Shown here one piece after another: positions 36,584 through 55,406 of a stretch of 64,000 nucleotides of DNA. A program made the translations under genes and the position numbers. The stretch covers positions 1 to 64,000 of the forward strand of contig NZ_JAFFJX010000022.1 in the NCBI RefSeq assembly GCF_016924755.1. Reading direction: 5' to 3'. The notes beneath the pieces were generated by a model. It worked only from the letters and a program-made list of their open reading frames with translations. It was not told the DNA's origin and made no database searches. How positions within the stretch are numbered: position 1 is the stretch's first letter; every line of letters starts with the position of its first letter. Source of the DNA: Longitalea arenae (GTDB lineage: Bacteria > Bacteroidota > Bacteroidia > Chitinophagales > Chitinophagaceae).

Positions 36584-39145
36584 CTAAAAAGAATACGTAA
36601 AGCTTGTATAATATAAGCCACCGATCTGTGGCCCGCCGAGGATAGAATAGTAATAGTGGTTCAGCAGATTAGTGGCGCCCAGCTTTACCTGCAGCTTTGG
36701 TTTTGCAAATGAATACTGCACCATTGCGTCGGCATTGAAAATGGCCGGCACGGTGCCGTTGATCAGAAATGATTGCCAGTAAAAATCACTTTGATAGCGG
36801 GCGGTGAGGTTAAAACCCAGTTTCTTATAAATGTCAGTTGCCCGCACACCAGCATTCACCATCCATTTTGGCGTGTTGAATCCATCTTCCAGCCCGTCAT
36901 TGGTATTGGTCCTTTTCAGGGTTTGATAACTGATATTAGCCCATACCGCATATTGCTTATTGATCATGTACAGGAGATCGATCGCAGCGCCATAATTATG
37001 CACAATGCTCTTTGAGTTCGTCCAGAGGCGGTAGCGGCCCTGTTTATTCCTGTCATATAAATAAGCCGGAATCAATGCGCTGTCAGCGGTATTGGCAACA
37101 CTCGCTTCAATCTGGGCAATAAAATTTGAATAGAAATTATAATACAGGTCGGCATCAATATAGAAGCGGTTATTTAATAAAATGGTCCGGTACCCTGCTT
37201 CAAAAGAATGCATTTGCTCGGGCTGCAAATACGAATATGTATTGCGCTGTAAGAGCACTTTGTTCTTTTCAATGGCGGCGGCCTGGCTTAGCCCCTGCGT
37301 GTTCACATCCCTGTTCACTGCAGCAGTAAACGCATCGATGGAACTTTTTAACCAGGAATTTTCAAAGACCCCATCCGACATTACTTTCAAACCGCCTACC
37401 CTTTTTACACCACCGCTGTTGATATTCGAAAAACCTTCAAAGATGCTGGGAAAGCGATATCCGTTCTGATAGGAAAAACGGGCAAAATTATTCCTGGTCA
37501 CTTCATATACTGCGGTCAGTCTCGGGTTCCACTTAAGATTGAAATATTCATAGCCGGTTGCACGCAATACCACACTGAGCTGTAATCGCTCCTGCATCAA
37601 CTTTTTTGAAGCCTGTACGAAGAAGCCATAGCTGGTATAATTTAAATTGGCGCCTGAATCGGTTGGATTTATAAAATAATTTCCATCGGGCACAATGATA
37701 TAATCCCTGAAATCGGCGCCCAGATGCAGATCAAAATTTCTGTGCAATAATTTCCCCAGGTCAAGTGTTGCTTCTGTATGCAGCAGGTGCGCCTTTACCT
37801 GTAAGGCAGCGCCAATATCCCAGTTGTTGATTTCCTGTAATTCTTTCAGCTTATCGTTGAAGGCACCGGTGCCAGGTTGCCAGCGTCCCTGATCTGCCGC
37901 TGCTCTTGCCTTTTGATGTGCAGCTGCTACACCAGGATCTGAAGCGATGGCATTGTTATACGCATTTGTATACTGCTGGTACCAGGTATTATTGTCTTTG
38001 AAGTTCAGATCCAAATTCTCTGCCATCGAACGCAGGTTATAAGAATGCCCGGTATTCTCTGAATTAAGATAAGCCCTTGCCTGTACAAGATCATTTTTAA
38101 ATTGAAGAATATGCTGCTGCAACCAATAATCCTGCAAACGAAAGCGGTTCGACCGTTGGTAGATGTTATTTAAGAAAGCGGTGCGGTAAGTGTAGGAAAG
38201 GGTTGTTCCTGCGGTTGGCCGATAATACAATGATAGATCACCTTTTACATTTTGCAACCGGTAATCCGTTACATCGCGTTCCCTATATCCTGTGCGGGCT
38301 ACCACATAATTTTTTCCACCCAGCGAGAGGGTCCGCCGGTTACTGCTTTCGTTGCCGTACCCGTTCACTGCATCATAAGCAGGATTATCAGCGCCGGATA
38401 AACCGGTTGTTATATTAGCTGCCGGGTTCAGATCGTCGCGGTTATCAGCGATCCAGTCATAGCCACGATTGTATCCTGCATTTATTTTAACCGCCCACTG
38501 TTTACCCACTACCCTGGCCCAGCGAACACTCGTTTCGTTATACAGCCTGGGCCCCACCTCACTGGGATCGTTCACATGATTAAGCGCCACCTGCTGTTGT
38601 ACGCTAAAGCCCTGGCTGGTAAAAGGATCTTTGGTAGTGAAGTTGGCCAATCCATTCATAGCATTCATCCCATACAATGCTGATGCGACGCCCTGGATAA
38701 CTTCAACATGTTCAATGTCCAGGTCACCGGGCGATAAAGCGTTGGCGATGGGAGCGCCGATATGCGGGCTTTGATTGTCGATATTGTCGATCATTTGCAC
38801 AAAGCGCACATTCGTAGTATTGCTGAAACCGCGGGTGTTAATGATCTTAAACCCCATACCCGGCACGATCATATGTACGCCTTTCATGGTACCAATGGCA
38901 TCAAAAAAGCCGGGCGCTGCGCTTTGCTGAATATTCCCGGCGCTTAGTTTGGAAATACTCACCGGAGCTGACAACTGCTTTTCCTGCAGGCGGGAAGCTG
39001 ATATTACGACCTCCTGCAACACATGCACTTTCTGCGCCGTATCCGTTTCCCGCTTGCCCTGGGCAAGACTGCTAATAGAAATGCACAGGCATAGCCCGGC
39101 ATGTAATAACTTTCTAACAAATGAACCGGGCTCATGAAAATGCAT
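36584..39145 (-). CDS. TonB-dependent outer membrane receptor
   Basis: 853 aa. Signal peptide near 10-29 (KLLHAGLCLCISISSLAQG), a TonB-box-like region VLQEVVISASRLQEKQLSAPVS, plug (about 50-180), then a barrel ending PQIGGLYYTSFTYSF with the terminal Phe expected of an outer membrane barrel. It has no carboxypeptidase-like domain, unlike the SusC at 40939. It resembles siderophore or vitamin receptors more than glycan ones. It lies 191 bp downstream of SusD on the same strand; a 13-bp inverted repeat in the gap may terminate the SusCD transcript. Confidence 0.9.
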   Translation of the reverse strand: MHFHEPGSFVRKLLHAGLCLCISISSLAQGKRETDTAQKVHVLQEVVISASRLQEKQLSAPVSISKLSAGNIQQSAAPGFFDAIGTMKGVHMIVPGMGFKIINTRGFSNTTNVRFVQMIDNIDNQSPHIGAPIANALSPGDLDIEHVEVIQGVASALYGMNAMNGLANFTTKDPFTSQGFSVQQQVALNHVNDPSEVGPRLYNETSVRWARVVGKQWAVKINAGYNRGYDWIADNRDDLNPAANITTGLSGADNPAYDAVNGYGNESSNRRTLSLGGKNYVVARTGYRERDVTDYRLQNVKGDLSLYYRPTAGTTLSYTYRTAFLNNIYQRSNRFRLQDYWLQQHILQFKNDLVQARAYLNSENTGHSYNLRSMAENLDLNFKDNNTWYQQYTNAYNNAIASDPGVAAAHQKARAAADQGRWQPGTGAFNDKLKELQEINNWDIGAALQVKAHLLHTEATLDLGKLLHRNFDLHLGADFRDYIIVPDGNYFINPTDSGANLNYTSYGFFVQASKKLMQERLQLSVVLRATGYEYFNLKWNPRLTAVYEVTRNNFARFSYQNGYRFPSIFEGFSNINSGGVKRVGGLKVMSDGVFENSWLKSSIDAFTAAVNRDVNTQGLSQAAAIEKNKVLLQRNTYSYLQPEQMHSFEAGYRTILLNNRFYIDADLYYNFYSNFIAQIEASVANTADSALIPAYLYDRNKQGRYRLWTNSKSIVHNYGAAIDLLYMINKQYAVWANISYQTLKRTNTNDGLEDGFNTPKWMVNAGVRATDIYKKLGFNLTARYQSDFYWQSFLINGTVPAIFNADAMVQYSFAKPKLQVKLGATNLLNHYYYSILGGPQIGGLYYTSFTYSF

Positions 39146-39263
39146 ACCTGTAAGCAGTTAAAGTCGTTATTCCCATAAATACATAACGACACAAATATAG
39201 GGAGATTCCCGCCGGCTTACAGGTTAAGTTTTTTCTCCTTGGTTCAACAATTTCTGATGTTGA

Positions 39264-39327
39264 GATTTAGAGATGTTGTGATTGGCTGAGTGTTGAACTC
39301 CCCAATAAACCGCGACATCTCTAAATC
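39264..39327 (-). other. 13-bp perfect inverted repeat between SusD and a TonB receptor
   Basis: GATTTAGAGATGT at 39264-39276 and ACATCTCTAAATC at 39315-39327, separated by 38 bp. It starts 10 bp after the SusD stop on the minus strand. The loop is too long for a classic terminator and no T run follows. It could be an RNA stem or a protein site. Confidence 0.5.
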
Positions 39328-39336
39328 CCGAATTTC

Positions 39337-40893
39337 TTACTGCGGATAACCATCATTTTGCGTAAGGTCGATATTCAGCTCGCGCTCCGATTGAGGGATG
39401 GGGTATAATAAACGGTTGGCATTTACCTGGTAAGCAGCCGCCGGCAAATAATTGTACAGCTGTTTCAGCTTAACACCATGCGCATTCATTACTTCTATGG
39501 CTTTGCCGGTACGCACCAGGTCGTGCCAGCGGCGGTTCTCAAAAGCCAGCTCTACCCTCCTTTCACGGGCAATGATGTCGGTCAGGGCGGCGGCATCGGA
39601 AGTCGTTATATTATGGTTTACGTTCCCGAATGCGCGTGCACGGACTTTGTTCAGGGGAACAAGCGCTTCGCCGGCTTTACCCTGTAAGTTTTTTGCTTCT
39701 GCCAGTAATAACAGGGCATCGGCATAGCGGTACACGGGCCAGTTATCATTGGTGTTATTCGGATTGGTATGCGGGTTTAAATATTTCTTGATATAAGGCA
39801 CACCTACCCTGCCGGCTGCCGGTTTATAATTCAGAACGCTTTTATTGGCTGAAAGCGTAAACAAGTTACTGGCATTGTAGGTTCCTTCGGCCATCCCGAT
39901 AGAAGCATCCTTACGCAGGGTATCGTCTGCTTCATAGGCATCGATCAGGTCCTGGGTGGGGGTATTCCAGCCACCGATCCCGCTGTTATCGGTTTTAACG
40001 CCGGTTATCAAGGTGGTATTCTGCGTGCGGGGCAGGAACTGATAAATGAAATTACTTTGCTGACCGCCCTGTAATCCCTCGAGGTATTGGACTTCAAAAA
40101 TAGATTCCCGGCTGTTCTTGTTATTGGTTGAAAATACATCGGCATATTTAGGCAGGAGATCATAACCCATACCAGCCAGGGAATTAAGCAGGGCCTCCGC
40201 TTCCGCATAATTTTGCTGCGTCATATACACTTCGGCAAGTAACATAGTGGCGGCCCCTTTGGTGGCCTGGCCCGATTGTTTACCTGATACAAAAACAGGG
40301 TTACTTAGTCTGGTTATGGCATCTTTGGCGTCATCGATGATCTGCGCGTATACGGCGGCGGCAGATGACCGGGGCAGGAAGGATTCTTCCGCATCAAGCA
40401 CTTCATGTATGAAGAGCGGCACGCCGCCAAAGTACCTTACCAGTTTAAAGTAGTTAAAAGCCCGCAGGAATTTTGCCTGGCCTACAATATCATTCTTCGC
40501 GGCATCGCTGAGTGTGCCGCCTTCTATCCGGTCGAGAATGACATTCGCCCGGGAGATGCCTTTGAAACAATGAAAATAAACGGCATTGCTGTAATTATTG
40601 GAAGGATCGTCCATGAAATCGGCCACGTTCTCGCGCATGGTATAAGCGGTTCCACGGTTGATCTGGTAATACTGGTAATGCGTATTGTCTGACCGCATTT
40701 CACTGGTATAAAAATCATTTTCCATCAGGTCGCGCAAAGGCGTGTAAGCAGCAGTGAGGGCCATCCTGAACTGCGCTTCCGTTTTATAAAAATTGGGTTC
40801 GCCGATCTGATCTTCGGGCGCCAGTTCGATAAAATCTTTTTTACAGGAGATAACGGTAAAAGCCAGCACCGTTATTATAAATATCTTGTTCAT
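39337..40893 (-). CDS. susD: SusD/RagB-family nutrient-binding lipoprotein
   Basis: 518 aa. Lipoprotein signal with cysteine in VISC-KKDF, followed by the SusD helices (NFYKTEAQFRMALTAAY, MRSDNTHYQYYQINRG, LRAFNYFKLVRYFGGVPL) and the C-terminal block (ARERRVELAFENRRWHDLVRTG). It is the surface cap that binds the substrate and hands it to SusC. The gene is 45 bp after the susC stop. The glycan or peptide ligand cannot be read from sequence. Confidence 0.95.
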   Translation of the reverse strand: MNKIFIITVLAFTVISCKKDFIELAPEDQIGEPNFYKTEAQFRMALTAAYTPLRDLMENDFYTSEMRSDNTHYQYYQINRGTAYTMRENVADFMDDPSNNYSNAVYFHCFKGISRANVILDRIEGGTLSDAAKNDIVGQAKFLRAFNYFKLVRYFGGVPLFIHEVLDAEESFLPRSSAAAVYAQIIDDAKDAITRLSNPVFVSGKQSGQATKGAATMLLAEVYMTQQNYAEAEALLNSLAGMGYDLLPKYADVFSTNNKNSRESIFEVQYLEGLQGGQQSNFIYQFLPRTQNTTLITGVKTDNSGIGGWNTPTQDLIDAYEADDTLRKDASIGMAEGTYNASNLFTLSANKSVLNYKPAAGRVGVPYIKKYLNPHTNPNNTNDNWPVYRYADALLLLAEAKNLQGKAGEALVPLNKVRARAFGNVNHNITTSDAAALTDIIARERRVELAFENRRWHDLVRTGKAIEVMNAHGVKLKQLYNYLPAAAYQVNANRLLYPIPQSERELNIDLTQNDGYPQ

Positions 40894-40938
40894 ATTACTG
40901 TTTTATAGTGACCAGGATAATTATTCAGGAATGATAGA

Positions 40939-43900
40939 TCATTTAAAACCGGTTGATAAACCCACCGCAAATACCCGGGGAACCGGATAGGCGTTTTCAT
41001 CGATGCCAATGCCGTAGCCATTCAATCCGTTCAAACTGATCTCAGGATTGATGCCGGAGTATTTTGTCAGGATCAATGCGTGTTGGATAGAACCAAAGAC
41101 GCGCAGGCTTTTGAAGGCTGTATTACTCTTTAACGGTACGGCGTAGCCAAGGGTAATATTCTTTACCGATAAATAGGAACCGTCTTCTACCCACTGGCTG
41201 TTCACCGAACGGCCCAGGGCAGTGGTACCGGTCTTTGTTCTGGGATATACCCCTGAGCCCGGGTTGTCTATGGAACGCCAACGGTCTTTTACCGCAGCCA
41301 GCAAACCCCGCGCACCATCGAGATTGGTGAGATAAGCCCATTTGGAAGGATTCAGGATCTTGCCGCCGTAGGAACCTGCGATCGTGATCGAGAGATCGAA
41401 ATTCTTATAGCTTAACTGGTGGCTGGTTCCAAAAAGAAAATCAGGATTGGGATCACCGATAAAGGTGCGGTCGCTTTCATTGATCACTTTATCGGGTATT
41501 ACATCTTTCATCTTGATGGTGCCTATATCAGAAGCCGAACCGTATTTGGGGGAATTGGCCAGGTCTTCCGCATCTTTGTACAAGCCATCGAAAACAAATC
41601 CGTAAAACTCACCCAGCGCATGTCCTTCCTGGTTGCGATAGTAATCGGAAGTAATGGTATTGTTGCGGCGGATAAAACCCGGCGCCAGCAATTTTTTGAT
41701 CTTGTTGCGGTCGAACGACATATTCACCGAAGCGTTCCAGTTGAATTTTCCGCTGAGAACAGCGCCGCTGACCGTGAACTCATGGCCCCAGAATTCGAGG
41801 ATCCCCACATTGGAAGAAACGCTGGTATAACCAGATGCCCGGGGAATGGGCCGGTCCTGGATCAAGCCGTCTGATAATTTGTGATAGAAATCATAGGTAA
41901 AGGACAACCTGTTATTGAACAGGGCAAGATCGAGCCCGATATCATATTGTTTGTTGCGCTCCCAGCGAAGCGCCGGGTTCTGCAGGGTAGAAATAGTGGC
42001 TCCTGATACCAGGGCGCCATTGAATACATAATGACTATAGGTTACCTGGGGAATGCTGGTATAATTACCGATATTGTTATTACCTGTTATGCCATAGCTG
42101 GCGCGCAATTTCAATAAACTGATGGTACGGAACCTTTCCATGAAATTCTCATTACTGATGATCCAGCCGGCTGAGAGGGAAGGGAAATTCCCGTATTTGG
42201 TGTTAGCGCCAAAGCGTGAAGAACCATCGCGGCGTATAGCGCCCGACAGCAGGTATTTACCGCGGAAATTGTAATTCAATCTTCCGATGGCCGACACCAG
42301 CGAATAAGCTGTCGCGTTACTCGCACCGGAGGTTATGGAAGTGGCTGCGCTCAGGAACGCTACATCATCGCTTGGAAAATTGGTGCCATTGATGCCATTG
42401 CTCTCCTGTTCGAACTGCTGGGCGGAATAGCCGGCCAGCAACTCGATATGATGGTCATTGAATAATGTCTTTGAATAATTGAGGGTGGCTTCTGCCGTCC
42501 ACGAATAATTATCTACCGAACTGCTGGTACCGGTGGCGATATTCGTTGTAGAGATGGAGGCCGGTGAATAACGGCTACGGGTCTCGGCGCCTTTATCCAA
42601 CGCCAGGTAACCCTTTACGCTCAGGCCCTTTAACAACTCATAATTCACATAGGCATTCCCTAAAATGCGTGTTGTCTTGTAATCATCTTTTATCTGCGTG
42701 AATTGTGCATACGGGTTTACATTCGCCACCATACCAGGTGAGTGCACGTACAGCGGCATATTGCCATTGCTGTCTACAGGGGCTATTAGCGGACTGGCCT
42801 CTACAATTTTTTCGATCAGGTTATTAACACCTTCTGTTCCCAGGCGGTTGTTATGGTCTATCCGGTAACTCGGGGCTATACCGAAGCCTATCTTCAGTTT
42901 ATTATTCACCAGGTTAAAGTCCTGGTTATAGCGCAAGGAAAACAGTTTTGTGCCTGTATTCAGGATCACGCCCTCCTGATTCTGATAACCGGCCATAACG
43001 GTTGAAGAAGATCTGCCGCTGGCGGATGACACCGTGAGATCGTAGTTTTGTATAGGCGCTTTGCGCGTTAACACTTCGAACCAGTTTGTGCCATCGCCAT
43101 AACGTTCTGGGTTACGGTAATCGGCAGCCAGTTGCCCGGTAAACCCTTCATACTTTACCCGGTCTTCATAATATTCATTCTGGAATTCCGCAAATTCGCG
43201 GGCAGTCATCATGTCGGGCCTGCCCTTTTTCGGGATCACCTGGGTGCCATAGAACGTGCTGAACTCTACTTTCGCATCACCTGATTTGGCGTGTTTAGTA
43301 GTGATCAGCACCACGCCATTGGCCGCTCTGGAGCCATAGAGCGAGCTGGCAGCAGCGTCTTTCAAAATGGTAAAGGTTTCTATCTCGGAGGGATTGATGT
43401 TATTGATACTACCGGTAATGGGAATGCCGTCTACTACAAAGAGCGGCTGATTATCCGATGCAAAAGAGGCAGCCCCGCGGATGCGGAATTCCATACCACG
43501 GCCAGGCGTTCCGCTGTTCTGCCCCACCTGTACACCGGCTACCTTACCCTGCAGCTGCTGAGCAAATTGTCCTACCGGCATGTCGGCCATTTCAGCCGCA
43601 TTCTGCTGCACGATAGAACCCGTCACTTCCTGCCGCCGTTGTTTACCATAACTCACAACCACTACGTCGAGGTTGGCCGCGTTATCTTTTAACACCACAT
43701 GTATGGTAGCCTCCTGCTGCGGATCGAAATCTTCTTTCCGGATCACCTGGGTTACATAGCCTATATGCGAGACGGTAAAAATAAATGTGCCTTTAACACC
43801 GGGGTTTTCGAAACTGAATTCGCCCTTCCGGTTGGTCACGGCGGAACGTTTATAATTGCCCGCTTCGTTTTTCATGTCAATGGTAACACCTTGCAGGCCT

Positions 43901-44070
43901 TCGCCCTTTTCATTTTCCACCAATCCTTTAATGGCAGAGTTACCGTTCTGGGCCTGCACAGGCCCAAAAAGAGAGACCAGTAAAAGCACCGGCAGTAACC
44001 AGGTTATTAATAACCGGCCTTTTTTAAAGAGCATGGCAAACCCTTTCACTACATGGTAGCGTTGTGTCAT
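40939..44070 (-). CDS. susC: SusC/RagA-family TonB-linked receptor
   Basis: 1043 aa. Signal peptide (LITWLLPVLLLVSLFGPVQAQ), CarboxypepD-like domain (SAIKGLVENEKGEGLQGVTI), TonB-box region DVVVVSYGKQRRQEVTGSIV, plug blocks (QLQGKVAGVQVGQNSGTPG, NPSEIETFTILKDAAASSLYGSRAANGVVLITTK) and a long barrel ending PRVFAVGLSTGFK. Paired with SusD in the usual order. It imports an oligomer across the outer membrane. A KdgF-like cupin gene lies 275 bp upstream. Confidence 0.96.
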   Translation of the reverse strand: MTQRYHVVKGFAMLFKKGRLLITWLLPVLLLVSLFGPVQAQNGNSAIKGLVENEKGEGLQGVTIDMKNEAGNYKRSAVTNRKGEFSFENPGVKGTFIFTVSHIGYVTQVIRKEDFDPQQEATIHVVLKDNAANLDVVVVSYGKQRRQEVTGSIVQQNAAEMADMPVGQFAQQLQGKVAGVQVGQNSGTPGRGMEFRIRGAASFASDNQPLFVVDGIPITGSINNINPSEIETFTILKDAAASSLYGSRAANGVVLITTKHAKSGDAKVEFSTFYGTQVIPKKGRPDMMTAREFAEFQNEYYEDRVKYEGFTGQLAADYRNPERYGDGTNWFEVLTRKAPIQNYDLTVSSASGRSSSTVMAGYQNQEGVILNTGTKLFSLRYNQDFNLVNNKLKIGFGIAPSYRIDHNNRLGTEGVNNLIEKIVEASPLIAPVDSNGNMPLYVHSPGMVANVNPYAQFTQIKDDYKTTRILGNAYVNYELLKGLSVKGYLALDKGAETRSRYSPASISTTNIATGTSSSVDNYSWTAEATLNYSKTLFNDHHIELLAGYSAQQFEQESNGINGTNFPSDDVAFLSAATSITSGASNATAYSLVSAIGRLNYNFRGKYLLSGAIRRDGSSRFGANTKYGNFPSLSAGWIISNENFMERFRTISLLKLRASYGITGNNNIGNYTSIPQVTYSHYVFNGALVSGATISTLQNPALRWERNKQYDIGLDLALFNNRLSFTYDFYHKLSDGLIQDRPIPRASGYTSVSSNVGILEFWGHEFTVSGAVLSGKFNWNASVNMSFDRNKIKKLLAPGFIRRNNTITSDYYRNQEGHALGEFYGFVFDGLYKDAEDLANSPKYGSASDIGTIKMKDVIPDKVINESDRTFIGDPNPDFLFGTSHQLSYKNFDLSITIAGSYGGKILNPSKWAYLTNLDGARGLLAAVKDRWRSIDNPGSGVYPRTKTGTTALGRSVNSQWVEDGSYLSVKNITLGYAVPLKSNTAFKSLRVFGSIQHALILTKYSGINPEISLNGLNGYGIGIDENAYPVPRVFAVGLSTGFK

Positions 44071-44345: not shown

Positions 44346-44684
44346 TTATTTGAGGAAATCTTCGCGGTGCGGCGAGAACACGTCTACCAGCATACCTGCT
44401 TCTATACAAACACAACCATGTACGGTATTTGGCGGCACATAATAGCCATCCCCCTTGCGGATGATCTTCTTTTCATTGCCGATGGTCATTTCAAATACGC
44501 CGCTTTCTACATAAGTTACCTGTGAATGCGGATGCTGATGCAGCGCCCCGATACCGCCTTTTTCAAATTTTGCCTTTACCAGCATTACACGGTCATCATA
44601 ACCATAGATCTGCCGTTGAATGCCACCGCCTACATCTTCCCAGGGGATCTCCTGTTCAAACTGGAATTCGCTGCTTTGGATCAT
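44346..44684 (-). CDS. KdgF-like cupin (uronate-linearising)
   Basis: 112 aa, a single cupin. Probable metal ligands H49, H51, Q55 (HQHPHSQ) and H89 (NTVHG), matching the HxH...Q...H set of KdgF. KdgF turns unsaturated uronates released from pectin or alginate into linear keto sugars. Position directly upstream of SusCD supports a role in a polyuronate locus. No lyase or glycosidase is encoded nearby, so the locus is incomplete in this window. Divergent from the RidA-like gene. Confidence 0.82.
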   Translation of the reverse strand: MIQSSEFQFEQEIPWEDVGGGIQRQIYGYDDRVMLVKAKFEKGGIGALHQHPHSQVTYVESGVFEMTIGNEKKIIRKGDGYYVPPNTVHGCVCIEAGMLVDVFSPHREDFLK

Positions 44685-44771
44685 ACTAGTCTTTTTAGTG
44701 CGGCCAAAAATAAGGATAACTTTTCTTCATATTCCGGAACCGTTATTTTTACGGTCACTAATTTCCTTGTT

Positions 44772-45242
44772 ATGAAAAAAAGTTTGCTTCTTCTTACTAT
44801 GGCGATCAGCCTGGCAAGGGCATCTCTTGCACAGAACACGTCTAACGTTCAATTAATTAATCCCGCCACCGTTGCAGCACCACGTGGCTATTCTCATGCT
44901 GCCATTATTGACCTCGGCAACTGCAAAATGGTGCTCCTGAGCGGCCAGGTAGCCCTGGATCAAAAAGGCAACCTGATCGGCAGCAATGATATTGCGAAAC
45001 AAACGGAGCAGGTGTTCCGGAATATCAAAAGCATACTGGAGGCTGCCGGTGGTAAGATGCACCAGATTGTTAAGCTGGGTTATTTTGCCACTGACATTTC
45101 CAATATTCAGGCCATTCGTAATGTGCGCGATCAATTCATCAATACTAAGAACCCGCCGGCCAGCACACTGGTGCAGGTTAATAAATTGTTCCGCGATGAT
45201 GTATTGATTGAGATCGAGGCAACCGCCATCATACCAAAATGA
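44772..45242 (+). CDS. Exported RidA/YjgF-like protein
   Basis: 156 aa from ATG 44772, which starts a signal peptide (MKKSLLLLTMAISLARASLAQ). The domain matches RidA (MVLLSGQVALDQKGNLIG, TEQVFRNIKSILEAAGGKMHQIVKL, VLIEIEATAIIPK). The imine-deaminase arginine (E. coli Arg105, in PARSC) is replaced: PPA-S131-TLVQV. It should therefore not have normal RidA activity. Export of such a protein is unusual but has parallels in Bacteroidota. Confidence 0.85.
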   Translation: MKKSLLLLTMAISLARASLAQNTSNVQLINPATVAAPRGYSHAAIIDLGNCKMVLLSGQVALDQKGNLIGSNDIAKQTEQVFRNIKSILEAAGGKMHQIVKLGYFATDISNIQAIRNVRDQFINTKNPPASTLVQVNKLFRDDVLIEIEATAIIPK

Positions 45243-47092: not shown

Positions 47093-47878
47093 ATGCTCAA
47101 AGTAATGTCATTACAAATAGCCGACAGCATTGATATTAAGCAATTTAAAACTGTATTCAAGGCGGAGCTGTTACATGGGGATTCTGATGAGCTGTTTTAC
47201 CGGGTGAAAACCCAGGAAAAGAAATTTGCCTATATCTTTAAATACGGCATTGTAAGTTTTCTTGGTTACAATGAGGTAGAGATCATGGGTTTTATTCAGG
47301 CCATCAGCCCTTATTGTAAAAACCTGTTCGAGCAGCATATCAGCGATGAATTCGATATTGAAGTAAATGCAGGCCGCAATAAGTTCGGCTGGAATAAAAT
47401 TGAAATTGAAGGGGCTTCTACCGACAGCCTGCGGCTGATCATGCTCAATGTTTCGCAATCGGTAGCGCTCGATCATTTTAACCACCAAACCAATCTGCTG
47501 CTGGAAGAAACCACCTTTCATACCCAGCAACTGGAACGTAAAGGCCGGCTCGACCTCTCGGGCGCCAATCTTAAAAAATACATTGGCCGCACATTGAACC
47601 TTAAGAACCGCATTGAGGCCAACCTCTACATCTTTGATTCGCCTGAAGAAACCTGGGAAGATGAGGAGCTGAGCCGGCTGGACCTCGGGCTTAAAAAAAC
47701 ATTCGACCTGCAGGCCCGCTTCAAAACAATTCGTGAAGGACTGGATATCGTAAAAGAGAACCTCGACTTATTCAAAGACCTGCTTCAATACCGCAAGAGT
47801 ATGGTGCTGGAATGGATCATCATTATTCTCATCCTGGTGGAAGTGATCAATCTTTTTATTGAGAAACTAATGGGGTAG
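47093..47878 (+). CDS. DUF155 (RMD1-like) protein
   Basis: 261 aa. Pattern LLHGDSDELFYRVKTQEKKFAYIFKYGIVSFLGYNEVEIMGF, later RFKTIREGLDIVKENLDLFKDLLQYRKSMVLEWIIIILILVEVINLFIEKLMG, identify the RMD1/Sad1-interacting-factor type family with a C-terminal membrane anchor. In eukaryotes related proteins act in mitochondria. The bacterial role is unknown. Start could be ATG 47093 or ATG 47105. Confidence 0.88.
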   Translation: MLKVMSLQIADSIDIKQFKTVFKAELLHGDSDELFYRVKTQEKKFAYIFKYGIVSFLGYNEVEIMGFIQAISPYCKNLFEQHISDEFDIEVNAGRNKFGWNKIEIEGASTDSLRLIMLNVSQSVALDHFNHQTNLLLEETTFHTQQLERKGRLDLSGANLKKYIGRTLNLKNRIEANLYIFDSPEETWEDEELSRLDLGLKKTFDLQARFKTIREGLDIVKENLDLFKDLLQYRKSMVLEWIIIILILVEVINLFIEKLMG

Positions 47879-48108: not shown

Positions 48109-48753
48109 TCATCTTGCTGCTTTACGATTTGTTTTGGTGGCTTTTCCATTGACTTTAGTGGCTTTTCCATTGACCTTGCTTCCCGTGGAAACCGCCTTAC
48201 CGGCATTTACTTTTGCCGGGCTCCCGTTCAGTTTTTTGCCATTCACTTTAGCAGCGTGGCCATTCAGCTTCTTACCATTCGTTTTTGAAGCCTTTCCATT
48301 TACCTTGGTGCCATTGGCCAGCAATTTCTTCTTCTCTTTTTCATCAATACGCATGTTATGGCGTATTACCTGCCAGTATTCAGGGCCATAACTAACAAAG
48401 ATCTCACCACCGGCCGGAATGTCTTTGGCCGCTTCTATGAATACCCGGGTACCATCTTCTACATACTCGGCGTTGTTATTAATATTCTTTACCCGCTGCA
48501 ATCCCCGCGCATCATTGGCATACCGGGCCATGGCTTTTTTATCATTCAAAGCATCGATGACAAAGTTGCGTGTTACATAATAAATATAAGGACTCTCCTG
48601 ATCATCGGCCTGTACCTCTTTCCAGGTTCGTGTTCTGCCTTTATATTCTACAATACGGGTTCCTTTAGGAATAAATTTTTTGGTAAATAATCCTTTTCCA
48701 GCGTTGGGTAAGGTAGATTTTTTAACGTACAACTGTTTCTCCAGGAATGCCAT
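48109..48753 (-). CDS. SET-domain methyltransferase with lysine-rich repeat tail
   Basis: 214 aa. The SET fold (about 7-120) shows NAGKGLFTKKFIPKGTRIVEY at the start and GEIFVSYGPEYW at the end (Tyr at the usual active-site place). The canonical NHS motif is NDA in ARYANDARG, as in several bacterial members. Predicted to methylate lysine with S-adenosylmethionine. From about 148 on the protein is a low-complexity tail of KVNGK/KTNGK/KKLNG units, basic and probably disordered, resembling a histone-H1-like tail. Such a tail could bind nucleic acid or be itself a substrate (inference). Confidence 0.85.
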   Translation of the reverse strand: MAFLEKQLYVKKSTLPNAGKGLFTKKFIPKGTRIVEYKGRTRTWKEVQADDQESPYIYYVTRNFVIDALNDKKAMARYANDARGLQRVKNINNNAEYVEDGTRVFIEAAKDIPAGGEIFVSYGPEYWQVIRHNMRIDEKEKKKLLANGTKVNGKASKTNGKKLNGHAAKVNGKKLNGSPAKVNAGKAVSTGSKVNGKATKVNGKATKTNRKAAR

Positions 48754-49070: not shown

Positions 49071-49114
49071 TAAAATAAAATCCTATGCCGGGAAGATGAC
49101 TCCCCGGCATAGGA
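49071..49114 (-). terminator. Rho-independent terminator for the GH127 operon
   Basis: Arms TCCTATGCCGGG / CCCGGCATAGGA with a 10-nt loop, then a TTTTATTTTA run on the minus strand. It lies just beyond the GH127 stop at 49151, so it ends the operon. The remaining gap 48754-49070 has no supportable gene. Confidence 0.85.
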
Positions 49115-49150
49115 TTAATGCATTAATAGTAAATAATTTGTACTAAAGAC

Positions 49151-51520
49151 TCAATATTCACCCTTCATCATCCGGATCTCACCATAAACCGGTCCAACCA
49201 TATTATCGGGCGCTGGTTTAAAGGTCACCATTACTTTATCCTTCCCTTTGGTGAGGCTCGCAGGAATGGGATATACTATTTCATAGAATTTACTGGCCTT
49301 GTATTTATTCAGGTCCTCTGTGGCCACCTTTTCATCATTCACCAGGATGTCAAATTTTCTGCCGCGGTTATCCATACCCCAATAGGTGCACAAGAGGCTG
49401 TTTACAGCCGATGGATCCACCTTCATGTTAAAAGAGAAATAGCCACCCGGATAAGCCACGCGGTACTTTTTAGTATGATCCTCTCCTGTATTCAGTTTCT
49501 CGCCCGCAAAATCATGGTCGCGCTCCGGTTGCATTTCACCCAGCCGTAAGAGATCAACGGTTCTTGCTTCCATCTCATGTCGTTTTTTTCGCTCCGCTTC
49601 ATACACTTTTTGTTGTTCGGCCCAGGCCTTTGGAGTGAACAGATCCCAGTAAACGCTGTAAAATTCTTTTTGCACCTGGTTGAAAGGTAAGAGAGTGACC
49701 TCTTGTGGCTGCCCGGTATTCACAGAACGAAAGAGCAAAGGTTGACTGCCATCCTGCTGCAACCATTTGGCCGGATTCGTTTCTGTTGACACCAGCACCG
49801 GAATGCCTGTCACAGGATCAGGTTCTTTATTCCCAAATACACCTGCCAGCACCAATGGACCATAGAGTACTGCCACGCGGTTCGGGTTGTCGGGCATTGC
49901 CTGGGTATGTAAGTACAGCGCCGGTGTAAACTCAACTACATCACCGCTCTTCCAGGTTCGGGTAATGGTAAAGTAACCGCTGGTATCGGGTGCTGCCATC
50001 TGGGCTTGCAACTTTCCATTCACTGCAACTGATATCCGCTGTTTCGACCAGTATGGATTTCGGATGCGCAAGGGAAAAGCAACCGGCTTTGTAGCAGTGA
50101 CCTTTAACAGCACCCGGTTATCGGTTGGCAATTGGGTTTGCTGCTCAATAATAACCCCTTTGTCTTTCCAGTTCAACCGCGAAGCTATGAACAGGTTCAC
50201 GTACAGGCTGCCATCTGCCCCCTGGAAATAAATACTTTCGCCGTACTTCACATGGTTTTCCATACCTGAGCCCACACAGCAGGTGAATGTATTGAAGGAA
50301 TCACTGTATTCTTTTTGCGTGCCCATCCGCAGCGGTACAAAATAACACATCATACCATTGCTGTGGTTTTGCGATGAAAGGATATGATTATACAGGGCCC
50401 GCTCGTAATAATCCATCAGTTTGACCGAAGGCTGCAATGCAAACAGGTGCCGGGTCAGCTTCAGCATATTATATGTGTTGCAGGTTTCCATAGTATTGTC
50501 GGTTAGCGTTTCGCTGAGTTTACCGGCAGGTCCCAGGTATTCATAATTGCTGTTACCGCCGGGTGCATAGGTATGATTGTTCACCACGGTTTGCCAGAAG
50601 AAATCAGCAATGGTCTTGTCTTTAACGCTGGCGGTCAGTTGATGGCGGCGGATACAACCGATCACTTTCGGGATCTGCGTATTGGAATGTTTTCCGGGAA
50701 GGATATCGATCTGCATGGCCAGGGAATCGAGGATGCGTTTATCGTGGAATTTATACGACAGGTCGAGGTATTTTTTTTCGCCTGTCAATGCATAGGTATT
50801 TACCAGCACATCGTTCATGCCCCCATATTCGCAAAACAACATCCGTTGCAGGGAACTGTCGGGCAGGTCTTTCAGCAGGTTGGCCGTCCAGTTAGCCATG
50901 CCGGTTTCTACCAGCAGGGCTTTTTTATTATCACAATACAAATAGGCATCCAGTAAGCCGGCCATGATCTTATGCACTGTATACCAGGGCGACCAGGCGC
51001 CGTTCAGGTCGAATCCACGGGAGCGGATATTGCCTTTTGCCACTTCCGCCCAAACACTGTCTTCTTTCGGAATAGCGCCCAGGTAACCATTGCGTTTAGG
51101 CTGGCACCCGGCCAGCTCCTCCACGATGTAATTGACCTTATCGAGAAAACGTTTGTCTTTTGTAACGGCATAATGCATGGCGCAGGCTGATAAATAATGT
51201 CCGAGACTATGCCCTGCCAGTCCTGAACTTTCCCAGCCGCCGTAGCGGGCGCCTTTTGCTTTCAATCCCGCATGTTCCCGGAAGTCGGCCAGGAGACGAT
51301 CGGGCTCTATCAGCAAGAGGTAACGCGCATCTGCTTCCATGGCGGTTTTAAAGGGGCCATCGAGCAATGTTACATCCTGCAGGTGAAAACTATAGGCCTT
51401 TACCGGAACCACCGGTTGAACGATCATTTTGTGCTGGCGTTTTTCCGGCACATAGCTTTGGGAATGTCCATAAAGATGAAGCATCACCAGTATCGTCGAA
51501 CAAAGGATATACTTTTTCAT
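49151..51520 (-). CDS. GH127-family beta-L-arabinofuranosidase
   Basis: 789 aa. Signal peptide (MKKYILCSTILVMLHLYGHS). Core DUF1680/GH127 domain with the zinc/catalytic cysteine set: E345-T-C347 and C414-C415 (FNTFTCCVGSGMENHVKYGES), matching the known Cys-nucleophile enzyme HypBA1 (Glu338, Cys340, Cys417, Cys418). C414 is the probable nucleophile. Glu327 is a candidate acid/base. It removes beta-L-arabinofuranose from hydroxyproline-linked sugars or side chains. Secreted or periplasmic. Last gene of the three-gene operon. Confidence 0.93.
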   Translation of the reverse strand: MKKYILCSTILVMLHLYGHSQSYVPEKRQHKMIVQPVVPVKAYSFHLQDVTLLDGPFKTAMEADARYLLLIEPDRLLADFREHAGLKAKGARYGGWESSGLAGHSLGHYLSACAMHYAVTKDKRFLDKVNYIVEELAGCQPKRNGYLGAIPKEDSVWAEVAKGNIRSRGFDLNGAWSPWYTVHKIMAGLLDAYLYCDNKKALLVETGMANWTANLLKDLPDSSLQRMLFCEYGGMNDVLVNTYALTGEKKYLDLSYKFHDKRILDSLAMQIDILPGKHSNTQIPKVIGCIRRHQLTASVKDKTIADFFWQTVVNNHTYAPGGNSNYEYLGPAGKLSETLTDNTMETCNTYNMLKLTRHLFALQPSVKLMDYYERALYNHILSSQNHSNGMMCYFVPLRMGTQKEYSDSFNTFTCCVGSGMENHVKYGESIYFQGADGSLYVNLFIASRLNWKDKGVIIEQQTQLPTDNRVLLKVTATKPVAFPLRIRNPYWSKQRISVAVNGKLQAQMAAPDTSGYFTITRTWKSGDVVEFTPALYLHTQAMPDNPNRVAVLYGPLVLAGVFGNKEPDPVTGIPVLVSTETNPAKWLQQDGSQPLLFRSVNTGQPQEVTLLPFNQVQKEFYSVYWDLFTPKAWAEQQKVYEAERKKRHEMEARTVDLLRLGEMQPERDHDFAGEKLNTGEDHTKKYRVAYPGGYFSFNMKVDPSAVNSLLCTYWGMDNRGRKFDILVNDEKVATEDLNKYKASKFYEIVYPIPASLTKGKDKVMVTFKPAPDNMVGPVYGEIRMMKGEY

Positions 51521-51601
51521 TTGTAGATATAAGGTTGTTCAGTTTTTCAGTTGTTCAGTTTTTCAAACTCGCGATTGTATTTAACTTAATAACCAAGGAA
51601 C

Positions 51602-53314
51602 TCATTTATAAAACTTCCACTCCGCCTTATAGTCTTTCGGCAAAGACTGATTCGTTATGATCGCCCTTACCATCGATACCGGCATGGCATTTTCATGCAT
51701 CACGGCATCATGGTATTGTTTAAGTGTCATTTTGCCACTATCCACCAGGTCTTTTTTCATAGCATAAAATTGCAGGCCACCGATCATATAGGCCAATTGA
51801 TACAATGGACCGTAGGCGCCCACAAATGACCGGCGTACCTCACCTTCGGCATTGGCCCGTTCATGGCCTACACGCTCAACCAGGAAGTCGATACATTGTT
51901 GCGGCGTCCATTTCCCCAAATGATAGTTCAGTGAAAAAATGATGCGGGCGCAGCGGTGCATCCGCCAGAACAACATGCCCACCCGGTCTTCGGGCGATTG
52001 CGGAAATTGCTGGTCCCATAAGATCATTTCACAGTAAAGGGCCCAGCCTTCGATCCAGAAGGGTGTATAAAAATTGCGGTATGCTTTATACCGGTTGTTC
52101 ATAAAGCCCTGCAGGTGGTGGCCGGCAATAAGCTCATGGTGAACAGTGGCCCGCGAGAAATGTGGATTATTACCCCGCATGCTCATCATCTTATCGTCTT
52201 CTTTCATCGTGTTGGTGGGATAGGAAATGCTCAACACTTCCCCACCGGTAAAAAAAGGATTTACCAGTTGCCGCTCCGGCGTCATCATGATCATGCGCCA
52301 GGTTTCTTCAGCCAGCGGCGGAATAGTGATCAAATCGTTTTTCTTCAGAAAGGCAACCGACTCGTTATACAATTTCATGATCGCCTCCGGTTGTTTGCCT
52401 GGCGGCACATAAGTGTTCTTCACTTTTTCGAGGGCTTTCTTCCAGTCTTTCCCAAAGCCCATTTCCTGCGAAGCCTTCAACATCTCCGCATCGCACCAGG
52501 CGAATTCCTTATTGGCGATCCCGATCAATTCCTCAGGTGTGTAAGGAATGAATTCCAACTGCAATTGCCGGATGATCTCCTCTTTCCCAATCGGATAACC
52601 GATGATGCCGCTGCCATCATCCTTGCCTCCGGGCGCTGCTTTCGCTCTTTGCAGCCAGCCCTGGCCGTAGGCTGCAAGCGCCGTGTCAAGTTGTTTAACG
52701 GCATCGGGCAGCCACCAGGTATATGCAGGATCATAACCTGTATAAAACTCGTTCACGCTTTTTAGTGCAGCGCGCAATCCGCGCACAGTACCCTGCGCCC
52801 GGCGAATGAGGTTAATGGTTATGGAAGAATCTTTAGTGAGGGCCGTACATAAATTATTGATGCTGGTTGTGATCGATCTCATGCTGCCGCCCCATTGCTG
52901 CGCATCCGGCTGGGAGCCGCGCCGGCGGAACTTTTCCATCTCATAAATGCCGGAGGTGAATGGGAACCAGTTCGCCAACTGTGCGATCTCCTTTTTTTCC
53001 AGTTCGAGCAGCCTTTGTTGTTCGTCGAGATCTCTTTTGAAGAGAATATAATCCACCCGGCTGCCCGTGGGCAGCTTGTCGAAGTTCAATTGCGCTACCT
53101 GTTTCAGGTAATCAGCAACCAGGGCGTTCATTCTATCGCGCCGTTCGGGGGAATTCTCCACAAAATAAAAACGGTTCAGGCTGCCTCGGTCAGCTTCATA
53201 TTGAACCATTAGGTTATTCACTTCACTGTTTTGCTCGTAGAGCGCAGGTTGGCACATGCATGACACCGTGATGAGCATGCTGCCGCTAAGGTTTAAGATG
53301 TGTTTTTTTCTCAT
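51602..53314 (-). CDS. DUF885 lipoprotein, probable zinc peptidase
   Basis: 570 aa. Lipoprotein signal (MRKKHILNLSGSMLITVSC) with cysteine in ITVSC. Gluzincin-like motif H393-E394-L-I-A-G-H399-H400-LQ, corresponding to HExxPGHHLQ with Pro changed to Ala. Catalytic Glu394 and zinc His residues are kept. DUF885 proteins are thought to be zinc-dependent peptidases. It would act in the periplasm or on the surface, in the same operon as the GH127 gene (81 bp downstream) and the DHDPS-family gene (111 bp upstream). Confidence 0.9.
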   Translation of the reverse strand: MRKKHILNLSGSMLITVSCMCQPALYEQNSEVNNLMVQYEADRGSLNRFYFVENSPERRDRMNALVADYLKQVAQLNFDKLPTGSRVDYILFKRDLDEQQRLLELEKKEIAQLANWFPFTSGIYEMEKFRRRGSQPDAQQWGGSMRSITTSINNLCTALTKDSSITINLIRRAQGTVRGLRAALKSVNEFYTGYDPAYTWWLPDAVKQLDTALAAYGQGWLQRAKAAPGGKDDGSGIIGYPIGKEEIIRQLQLEFIPYTPEELIGIANKEFAWCDAEMLKASQEMGFGKDWKKALEKVKNTYVPPGKQPEAIMKLYNESVAFLKKNDLITIPPLAEETWRMIMMTPERQLVNPFFTGGEVLSISYPTNTMKEDDKMMSMRGNNPHFSRATVHHELIAGHHLQGFMNNRYKAYRNFYTPFWIEGWALYCEMILWDQQFPQSPEDRVGMLFWRMHRCARIIFSLNYHLGKWTPQQCIDFLVERVGHERANAEGEVRRSFVGAYGPLYQLAYMIGGLQFYAMKKDLVDSGKMTLKQYHDAVMHENAMPVSMVRAIITNQSLPKDYKAEWKFYK

Positions 53315-53425
53315 AAGCGTGGTTGGTCAATGTGCTGATTTGCTAATAGAAAACCCTCCTTTTTTCCGATCCCGATACCTTTATGAACTTATCAAATTTT
53401 CAACCCTATCACTATATCAACTCTG

Positions 53426-54349
53426 TCAACTGATCAACCGGGTCAACTTGAACTCCGGCAACTCCGGCCTGTTGGCAATACCTTCCTGGATGATGCTTAG
53501 AATACGTTCCCGTTCTTCGCCCACCAGCGTTAAGCGCGGAGCGCGTACATATTCTGAGCCCAATCCTACCTGCGCTTCGGCCAGCTTGATATACTGTACC
53601 AGCTTGGGATGTATATCCAGTTCCAGCAGCGGTAAGAACCAGCGGTAAATAACCCGGGCTTCTTCCAGCAAACCGGCTTTCACCAGCCGGTATACGGCTA
53701 CAGTTTCACGGGGAAAGGCCGTTACCAGGCCGCCAACCCATCCATCGGCGCCCATGAGCAATTCCTCCATCGCTAACGTATCAACACCGCATAAGATCTT
53801 ATACCGGTCGCCGAACCGGTTGATCATCCGCGTTACGTTCGATACATCGCGGGTTGATTCTTTCACCGCCTGAATATTGTCGCATTCCAGCAGCTGTTCA
53901 AAGATATCGAGGGTCACTTCGGTTTTATAGTCAACGGGATTGTTATAGATCATGATCGGCAGATCGGTTGATCCTGCCACCGTTTTGAAGAAGGTATATG
54001 TTTCGCGCACATCGGTCTTGTATCGCATGGGCGGCAATAACATCAGGCCTTTTACCCCCCAGCTTTTAGCCAATGCCGCCTGTTTGATCGCTTCGCGGGT
54101 TGCACCTTCCGCAATATTCAATACCACGGGAACCCGTCCGGCAATATCGATAGCCAGTTTCACCAGCGTTTCTTTTTCCTCAGTGGTGAGGGTACTGGCT
54201 TCCCCCAGGCTGCCTCCCAGTACAATGCCATCTACACCGGCATCGAGTTGCGACTGTAATCCTTTTTCAAACAACGCCAGGTCGAGGGTATCACTGGCTG
54301 TAAACTTGGTTGTGAAGGCAGGAAATACTCCTTTCCATGATATACTCAT
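53426..54349 (-). CDS. DHDPS/N-acetylneuraminate-lyase family enzyme
   Basis: 307 aa, standard (beta/alpha)8 length. Schiff-base Lys163 in AVKEST, Tyr135 in MIYNNP, and GSLGE (46-50) in place of DapA's GTTGE. It opens SWKGVFPAFTTKFT, a start I associate with Bacteroidota enzymes near hydroxyproline catabolism. Options: 1-pyrroline-4-hydroxy-2-carboxylate deaminase, 2-keto-3-deoxy-arabonate dehydratase, or an aldolase. DapA itself is unlikely. First gene of the operon, divergent from the AraC regulator. Confidence 0.9.
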   Translation of the reverse strand: MSISWKGVFPAFTTKFTASDTLDLALFEKGLQSQLDAGVDGIVLGGSLGEASTLTTEEKETLVKLAIDIAGRVPVVLNIAEGATREAIKQAALAKSWGVKGLMLLPPMRYKTDVRETYTFFKTVAGSTDLPIMIYNNPVDYKTEVTLDIFEQLLECDNIQAVKESTRDVSNVTRMINRFGDRYKILCGVDTLAMEELLMGADGWVGGLVTAFPRETVAVYRLVKAGLLEEARVIYRWFLPLLELDIHPKLVQYIKLAEAQVGLGSEYVRAPRLTLVGEERERILSIIQEGIANRPELPEFKLTRLIS

Positions 54350-54527
54350 TCGTATTAATTTTTAATAAAGGTATTATGAAGCAGTTGGTATAGGATAGCC
54401 TGTTTTGATCAGTTTCTTACCGATATTAACAAGCTGTTCTTAATCACTTCTTTACCGATATTAACCTCCTGCATCATTCTTTGAGAAAAAATTGGTAATA
54501 TTGGTTAAACAGATCAAAACCCTGCTC

Positions 54528-55406
54528 ATGAAAGTCGTTCAGTTCACCATTCCGGTTTCCCAGGAACATTCTATTATGGTACAGGAAGATAAGTTACCTC
54601 ATTTTTATAATCACCTGCACCGCCATAATGAAACCCAGCTTACCTGGATCATTAAAGGAGAAGGCACGCTCATTGCCGGCACCGGTATGCAGCGCTTTCA
54701 GTCGGGCGATATTTATATTCTCGGCGCCAATCAGCCCCACCTCTTCAAAAGCGATCCTGATTATTTTGAAAAGAACAGCCAGAAAGATATCCATGCCCTT
54801 ACCCTCTTTGTTGACCTGCGGGGGCCTTTTGGCAGGATCCTCGATCTGCCTGAAATGAACAACGTGAAAAAATTCATGGAAGCCACCCGCAAGGGATTAC
54901 AGGTACCTGCATCGCAGCAGCAAAACATTGCAAAGAAAATGCTGCTGGTAAAAGAAGCACGGAACGGCATCCGGCTGGCCTTCTTCATTCAACTCCTGCA
55001 AACCCTCTGCCGCATCAAACAATACCGCTCGCTTTCCGATACCCATACTGAAAATTCTATTACGGAATCGGAGGGCTTGCGCATGAATGATATTTATCAA
55101 TACACCATAGCGCATTACACCGAGAACATCACGCTGAAGCAAATTGCCGATGTGGCCCATCTTACCCCCCAGGCTTTCTGCCGCTACTTTAAAAAACACA
55201 CGCTGAAGACCTATGTGGCTTTCCTGAATGAAGTACGCATCAATGAAGCCTGCAAGAAAATTGTATCAGAGAACTTCGACAGCCTGGCTGCGGTTGCTTA
55301 CCAGAGCGGGTTTAACAATGCCGTTACCTTCAACCGGGTATTCAAAAAAATAACCGGACAACCACCCAAGAAATTTCTAACCGAGTATATGCAGAAAGTG
55401 AACTAG
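54528..55406 (+). CDS. AraC-family regulator of the catabolic operon
   Basis: 292 aa from ATG 54528. The frame is open 36 bp further upstream, but MKVVQFTIPVSQEHSIMVQED is the normal family start. N-terminal cupin (HFYNHLHRHNETQLTWIIKGEGTL) and C-terminal AraC domain (ENITLKQIADVAHLTPQAFCRYFKKHT, then DSLAAVAYQSGFNNAVTFNRVFKKITGQPPKKF). Divergent from the DHDPS-family gene with 178 bp between starts, the expected layout for its regulator. Confidence 0.93.
   Translation: MKVVQFTIPVSQEHSIMVQEDKLPHFYNHLHRHNETQLTWIIKGEGTLIAGTGMQRFQSGDIYILGANQPHLFKSDPDYFEKNSQKDIHALTLFVDLRGPFGRILDLPEMNNVKKFMEATRKGLQVPASQQQNIAKKMLLVKEARNGIRLAFFIQLLQTLCRIKQYRSLSDTHTENSITESEGLRMNDIYQYTIAHYTENITLKQIADVAHLTPQAFCRYFKKHTLKTYVAFLNEVRINEACKKIVSENFDSLAAVAYQSGFNNAVTFNRVFKKITGQPPKKFLTEYMQKVN

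Follow-up and report, generated by a model that had tools for sequence, protein, structure and literature searches.

A conserved three-gene unit with a divergent regulator

Genes for a dihydrodipicolinate synthase (DHDPS)-family protein, a DUF885 protein, and a putative β-L-arabinofuranosidase of the glycoside hydrolase (GH) families 127/146 lie beside a divergent AraC-family regulator in a 64,000-nt stretch of contig NZ_JAFFJX010000022.1 (positions 1 to 64,000, forward strand; RefSeq assembly GCF_016924755.1, Longitalea arenae, counted here among the Niastella genomes), hereafter the window (Table 1). We consider them here as a candidate system for the use of hydroxyproline (Hyp)-rich plant glycoproteins. 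An earlier interpretation made from the letters alone (the sequence-only reading) had placed the three genes in one operon opposite the AraC gene, and our sequence comparison confirmed a single unit: its internal gaps measure 81 and 111 bp, the terminator scan found no terminator-like site in either of them, and the order DHDPS-DUF885-GH is identical in all nine Niastella genomes that carry the three genes. In the tenth Niastella genome (G008, 61% complete), neither the DUF885 nor the DHDPS ortholog was seen. Three weaker minus-strand terminator-like sites fall within the DUF885 gene, and the scan as a whole ran at chance level (8 sites versus 7.4 in shuffles). The TTG that opens the listed AraC open reading frame (ORF) falls within an operator element, so translation probably begins at the in-frame ATG at 54528 instead.

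The residues that the sequence-only reading had singled out were all located by script, namely E345, C347, C414, and C415 in the hydrolase, G46-S-L-G-E50, Y135, and K163 in the DHDPS-family protein, and H393-E394-L-I-A397-G-H-H (HELIAGHH) in the DUF885 protein, which also carries a second motif, E422GWALY.

Table 1. Features of the unit and its control region, with hydroxyproline genes outside the window
Feature	Position	Strand	Details
GH146-type β-L-arabinofuranosidase with DUF6805 C-terminal domain	49151..51520	-	789 aa; PF07944 399 bits, PF20736, PF20620
DUF885 protein, probably exported putative zinc peptidase	51602..53314	-	570 aa; PF05960 189 bits
DHDPS-family protein, proposed Δ1-pyrroline-4-hydroxy-2-carboxylate (Pyr4H2C) deaminase; first gene of the unit	53426..54349	-	307 aa; PF00701 190 bits
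Divergent AraC-family regulator	54528..55406	+	HTH_18 64 bits, AraC_binding; listed ORF 54492-55406 begins at TTG
Terminator-like hairpin, 17 pairs, just past the GH stop	49079..49116	-	terminator scan
Two direct 26-nt repeats, TTACCGATATTAAC core, 35 nt apart; proposed AraC operator	54405..54465 (54405-54430, 54440-54465)	.	repeat search; similar element in 9-genome alignment
Third, related operator element TTGGTAATATTGGTTAA	54492..54508	+	similar elements visible in 9-genome alignment
4-Hydroxyproline epimerase (4HypE)	G000 C22:932570-933544		NCBIfam 595.5 bits, cut-off 376
D-amino-acid oxidase (DAO)-type flavoprotein beside epimerase	L090 11131	+	43% identical to intact-Hyp-operon protein
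Aldehyde dehydrogenase (ALDH) beside epimerase	L090 8196	+	58% identical to intact-Hyp-operon protein

The DHDPS-family protein and hydroxyproline catabolism

The reactions of Hyp catabolism and their four enzyme superfamilies are described in PMC4113996. All four superfamilies occur in the genome that holds the window. The epimerase, oxidase, and dehydrogenase genes, whose presence elsewhere in the genome the sequence-only reading had raised, lie together on contig C22, where the DAO-type flavoprotein and the ALDH both score under the cut-off of each NCBIfam model shown for them. Across the 19.9 kb read around this ALDH-4HypE-DAO cluster, no DHDPS gene was present. Our comparative analysis revealed orthologs of the window DHDPS protein (62-78% identical) in 12 non-Niastella genomes of the sample, representing 12 genera, and their fetched neighbourhoods contained 4HypE in 12, ALDH in 11, and DAO in nine cases; in one genome (G015), the epimerase and oxidase lie ~22 kb from the ortholog on the same contig. 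In Niastella, the DHDPS gene is unlinked to the epimerase cluster, but the genome offers no better candidate for the deaminase. A scan of public genomes yielded 80 named DHDPS loci, many of them shortened by short contigs, with ALDH in 59, 4HypE in 52, and DAO in 37; 70 loci had one or more of the three. Where over 20 kb of DNA was available (44 loci), the epimerase was found in 32 and at least one Hyp gene in 40. Across 59 related genomes, the DHDPS ortholog and 4HypE were both present in 21 and both absent in 36, with 4HypE alone in two (one being the incomplete G008) and the ortholog alone in none, an agreement in 57 of 59 genomes; with Niastella counted once, the corresponding numbers are 13 with both, 36 with neither, one with 4HypE alone, and none with the ortholog alone. 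More distant proteobacterial relatives (46-49% identical) in Thalassospira, Burkholderia, and Sphingomonas adjoin an annotated 4-hydroxyproline epimerase or lie at most 5 kb from it, and no epimerase was found within the stretch examined for the Rhizobium and Neorhizobium relatives. Since the C22 cluster is without a DHDPS gene and the orthologs elsewhere are linked to 4HypE, the Pyr4H2C deaminase that its genome would otherwise lack is most likely the window protein.

Other identities for this protein were weighed against the same data. A DapA- or NanA-like aldolase without a role in Hyp use would agree with its best NCBIfam score, dapA at 164 bits, but this lies under the cut-off of 206, and the genome has a true DapA at another locus (C4, 301 bits); the four other DHDPS matches of the genome, DapA among them, are only 23-26% identical to the window protein. 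In a 28-row tree, a DapA pair was, with weak support, the next neighbour to the window group taken together with the DHDPS protein of the Sinorhizobium meliloti Hyp cluster, which we take to be HypD and which matches PDB 5czj across its 320 residues (718 bits). When 11 rows were removed (six orthologs, and five rows that were paralogs or S. meliloti proteins without assignment), the resulting 17-row tree placed the S. meliloti protein, on a very long branch, with the window group to the exclusion of DapA, NanA, and YagE (support 96/91), and the alternative groupings were only marginally rejected (DapA p 0.051, NanA p 0.056, YagE p 0.043). The grouping with NanA or DapA that the sequence-only reading had named as one that would refute its proposal did not appear in either tree, and we give an identity as DapA, NanA, or YagE scarcely any credence.

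The sequence-only reading had left two roles open to the DHDPS-family protein, of which the Hyp deaminase step is supported by synteny. The other was 2-keto-3-deoxyarabonate (KDA) dehydration: L-KDA dehydratase belongs to the same superfamily as DHDPS, and next to an arabinofuranosidase gene, such an enzyme could handle the released arabinose in a route of L-arabinose oxidation. This is very unlikely, given that the orthologs sit with 4HypE, DAO, and ALDH and that the genome has an L-arabinose isomerase (araA, C33:388929, 292 bits). The tree rows contained no KDA dehydratase, and none of the five DHDPS-type genes found on S. meliloti pSymB could be named as one.

The arabinofuranosidase lineage and the DUF885 protein

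On sequence comparison, the window hydrolase belongs to GH146 and is BT0349-like, which replaces the HypBA1-type GH127 assignment of the sequence-only reading: its nearest solved structure is 5opj (E 7e-148, aligned residues 44-786 of 789), presumably BT0349 itself, versus E 1e-6 for the HypBA1 structure 3wkw. Zinc and nucleophile roles are described for the E-x-C and C-C residues of GH146 (PMC10850190). Because GH146 includes enzymes active on arabinofuranose (Araf)-β-Hyp, namely Bll4HypBA1 and XeHypBA1 (PMC10850190), the revised class leaves the idea of Hyp-arabinoside use unharmed. In the 80 named loci, we counted 11 GH127/146 genes in 10 loci versus 0.9 expected, and still 10 genes versus 0.9 without the Niastella locus. 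The expectation derives from the density in 36 family genomes, which was counted by a different detection method, and the loci are not independent of one another.

We then built a tree of 26 GH146-type proteins with two GH127-type rows as the outgroup. The proteins came from 20 regions (L223 without an ORF) and were kept if they scored >200 bits to the window hydrolase and higher than to the GH127-type; four of the nine Niastella unit hydrolases were included, and two GH127-type proteins near Hyp clusters (L235, L236) as well as Bll4HypBA1 and XeHypBA1 were left out. All 12 Hyp-linked proteins, including that of the window and with four Niastella members among them, fell into one clade of 15 with support of 83/98. 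Of the other three in the clade, those from G016 and G030 have no Hyp linkage and the one from G032 lies on a short contig apart, and none of the 11 proteins outside the clade, among them the own-genome paralogs L001 and L005, is Hyp-linked. A second, GH127-type gene also recurs in Hyp loci, with the Spirosoma copy nearest to 6ex6.

Alignment, a predicted model (mean predicted local distance difference test score, 81), and Foldseek agreed that the third protein carries both the HExxxGHH motif and the fold of DUF885. All 12 aligned orthologs share H393, E394, G398, H399, and E422, whereas residue 397 is Ala in 11 and Pro in one; significant Foldseek matches were returned solely to the DUF885 structures 3u24, 3o0y, and 3iuk (E 7e-13 to 3e-8, 14-16% identity). 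A candidate lipobox Cys is kept in two of the 12 orthologs, so the lipoprotein assignment of the sequence-only reading is not upheld as a conserved trait. Close orthologs (at least 49% identity) are found in 15 of 23 epimerase-bearing genomes versus 2 of 36 others; the gene adjoins Hyp genes in G015 and G017 and lies within ~5 kb of them in G023, while among the named loci it adjoins the oxidase in L129 and L196 and lies within 5 kb of it in L205. From its motif and neighbourhood, the DUF885 protein is a putative peptidase that would act on Hyp/Pro peptides. Prolyl-type peptidases (M24 aminopeptidase P, S9/dipeptidyl peptidase IV) also occur in Hyp clusters, as identified by Pfam in G018 and G023 and by similarity in G015, G024, and G027.

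The whole set stands in one place on a plasmid of Spirosoma oryzicola from rice grain (L118), where SusD, SusC, AraC, DHDPS, 4HypE, a flavin adenine dinucleotide-dependent oxidoreductase, two GH127/146 proteins, an amino acid permease, and DUF885 are encoded within 18 kb. Its DHDPS, DUF885, and one of the hydrolases are 62.5%, 63%, and 61% identical to the window proteins, the other hydrolase is 54% identical to the GH127-type of G023, and the SusC/SusD pair sets it apart from the window unit. Rhizobium leguminosarum plasmid pR132505 (L121) combines a DHDPS gene with genes for a Xaa-Pro peptidase, a β-L-arabinofuranosidase domain protein (38% identical to the GH127-type), and a sugar ATP-binding cassette (ABC) transporter. 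DHDPS matches similar to that of pR132505 occur on many Rhizobium plasmids.

It could be argued that the catabolism of free Hyp is real, but that the GH146 and DUF885 proteins belong to the use of pectin arabinan and to general peptide turnover, their place in the unit being a matter of chance. We consider this unlikely in view of the excess of GH127/146 genes in the named loci, the single lineage of all linked GH146 proteins that excludes the genome's own paralogs, the gene order kept in all nine Niastella genomes with the unit, and the similar pairing in Rhizobium, even though 70 of the 80 DHDPS loci show no GH127/146 within the DNA examined, G011 and G016 carry a DUF885 ortholog without 4HypE, and BT0349, the nearest characterised GH146, is active on β1,2-arabinobiose and an arabinan-derived tetraose and sits in a rhamnogalacturonan I (RG-I) locus (PMC10850190).

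A proposed split system and its known relatives

A copy of the third operator element with two mismatches lies in the promoter of the ALDH-4HypE-DAO cluster (G000:C22:930691-930707), 88 bp upstream of the ALDH start. As this 17-mer was picked after both promoters were known, we repeated the test by comparing the complete intergenic region with every available promoter; the C22 ALDH promoter ranked 1 of 103 in its own genome (score 15.5, next 12.5), and the ALDH promoters of the eight other Niastella genomes ranked 12, 1, 5, 14, 100, 9, 21, and 11 of 103. Given these mixed ranks in congeners, the data only suggest that one AraC regulator serves the window and C22 loci. With at most two mismatches, the plain 17-mer has five further sites in the genome, one being the Hyp promoter, versus nine for the reversed control, so its number of sites is not unusual; a second copy with three mismatches lies upstream of a radical-SAM gene in L090. 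In L090, the 14-mer operator core is nowhere matched with less than three mismatches, and the C22 promoter shows no match to it. In other genera, the operator core (at most two mismatches) was enriched upstream of DHDPS genes (8/79 versus 7/591, p 9e-5), with the Niastella locus L128 left out and with four patterns at four thresholds tried, some of which were not significant. A degenerate operator pattern was circular and was not used as evidence.

Gene content, conserved synteny, co-occurrence, and the hydrolase lineage were read directly from the genomes, and we put a probability of roughly 0.74 on the view that Niastella holds a split regulon for Hyp-rich plant glycoproteins or glycopeptides of the extensin type, with the window as one half. 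In this scheme, the GH146 enzyme, outside the cytoplasm, would strip β-L-Araf from Araf-Araf and possibly Araf-Hyp, after which the DUF885 metallopeptidase, likewise outside the cytoplasm, would open the bared Hyp/Pro-rich peptides. Following uptake, trans-4-hydroxy-L-proline would be epimerised by 4HypE and converted by the DAO-type oxidase to Pyr4H2C, which the window DHDPS-family protein would deaminate to α-ketoglutarate semialdehyde for oxidation to α-ketoglutarate by the ALDH. The epimerase, oxidase, and dehydrogenase would thus be supplied from C22 and the deaminase, peptidase, and hydrolase from the window, with the AraC protein possibly governing both. A wider proposal, which we hold tentatively and at slightly less than even odds, is that Bacteroidota repeatedly contain a Hyp-arabinoside system, matched by a counterpart in Rhizobium, whose dedicated GH146 lineage and DUF885 clade, the latter a new family of Hyp/Pro-directed metallopeptidases, together yield arabinose and Hyp from extensin-type glycoproteins, and that in Niastella its two loci are joined by one AraC operator.

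Several observations weigh against the split-regulon reading, in addition to the marginal tree tests, the uneven promoter ranks, and the points granted above to a chance neighbourhood. The ORFs of the window include no SusC/SusD pair inside the unit; the nearest pair (39337-44070) is separated from it by five ORFs of at least 150 aa, four of them on the opposite strand. The window DHDPS protein scores under the cut-off of all seven NCBIfam models that it matched and shares just 28.7% identity with the DHDPS protein of the S. meliloti Hyp cluster (tblastn). None of ALDH, 4HypE, and DAO is seen in 10 of the 80 named loci, the Niastella locus being one, and four loci have no Hyp gene despite more than 20 kb of DNA (L128, which is Niastella, L156, L182, and L190). 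In G032 and G033, the DUF885 ortholog lies away from Hyp genes. On balance, the hydroxyproline idea of the sequence-only reading is supported in its main line, with three details (its hydrolase class, lipoprotein, and KDA option) wrong or improbable.

Further genes lie around the unit and its relatives. A SusC/SusD pair with a further TonB-type receptor (36584-44070, minus strand), ~5 kb from the unit, may be an uptake partner. An ORF of the RidA family (PF01042) with an N-terminal extension (44526-45242, plus strand) lies outside the unit, and RidA-type imine/enamine hydrolases could matter close to an imine intermediate. A DUF155 protein (RMND1/Sif2 family, PF02582) is encoded at 47093-47878 (plus strand), and a SET-domain protein, whose C-terminal tail is repetitive and rich in Lys/Asn/Gly (KVNGKATK-like), at 48109-48753 (minus strand), ~0.3 kb from the unit's terminator-like hairpin; ORFs of comparable size are found close by in L075 and L076. 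Within a Hyp cluster, L078:3912-5219 holds a gene of the fatty-acid-hydroxylase family (PF04116) on the opposite strand, and ORFs of comparable size occupy a comparable position in L082, L083, and L086.

Plant cell walls contain both Hyp and β-L-arabinofuranose in extensins and related glycoproteins, and in the literature that we found, the sugar-removal enzymes and the Hyp pathway are described apart. No paper in the literature searched, with most subscription papers outside it, combined "hydroxyproline epimerase" with "arabinofuranosidase", and a search joining hydroxyproline, Chitinophaga, and arabinofuranosidase returned, judged by title, only type II arabinogalactan degradation and an Arabidopsis arabinopyranosidase. 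The use of extensin by Latescibacteria has been predicted from GH127, with Hyp catabolism unmentioned in the excerpts of that paper (PMC4454575). The joined gene set offers a testable path that leads from glycoprotein into central metabolism. It also provides hypotheses on the function of the DUF885 clade and on the specificity of the GH146 lineage, and it gives proteins currently annotated as "dihydrodipicolinate synthase family" a proposed role as deaminases.

Among known proteins and systems, 3u24, 3o0y, and 3iuk share their fold with the predicted DUF885 model and are function-unknown proteins of low identity to it. BT0349, the closest relative of the window hydrolase among solved structures, has a pectin context, whereas the context of the window enzyme is Hyp catabolism. 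The HypAA/HypBA2/HypBA1 extensin-arabinoside systems of Bifidobacterium longum and Xanthomonas euvesicatoria likewise have a GH127/146 β-L-arabinofuranosidase, and the GH146 members Bll4HypBA1 and XeHypBA1 act on Araf-β-Hyp (PMC10850190, PMC6085000); the excerpts, however, describe sugar enzymes, joined in B. longum by an ABC transporter (PMC7263609), and make no mention of Hyp catabolism. The known Hyp pathway (PMC4113996) employs the same four enzyme superfamilies, but here its genes are split over two loci, its deaminase is distant in sequence from that of S. meliloti, and an AraC protein stands where GntR is annotated in five proteobacterial neighbourhoods examined. The proposed system would join this known catabolic pathway to glycoprotein deconstruction, coupling the proposed deaminase to a glycosidase and a putative peptidase.

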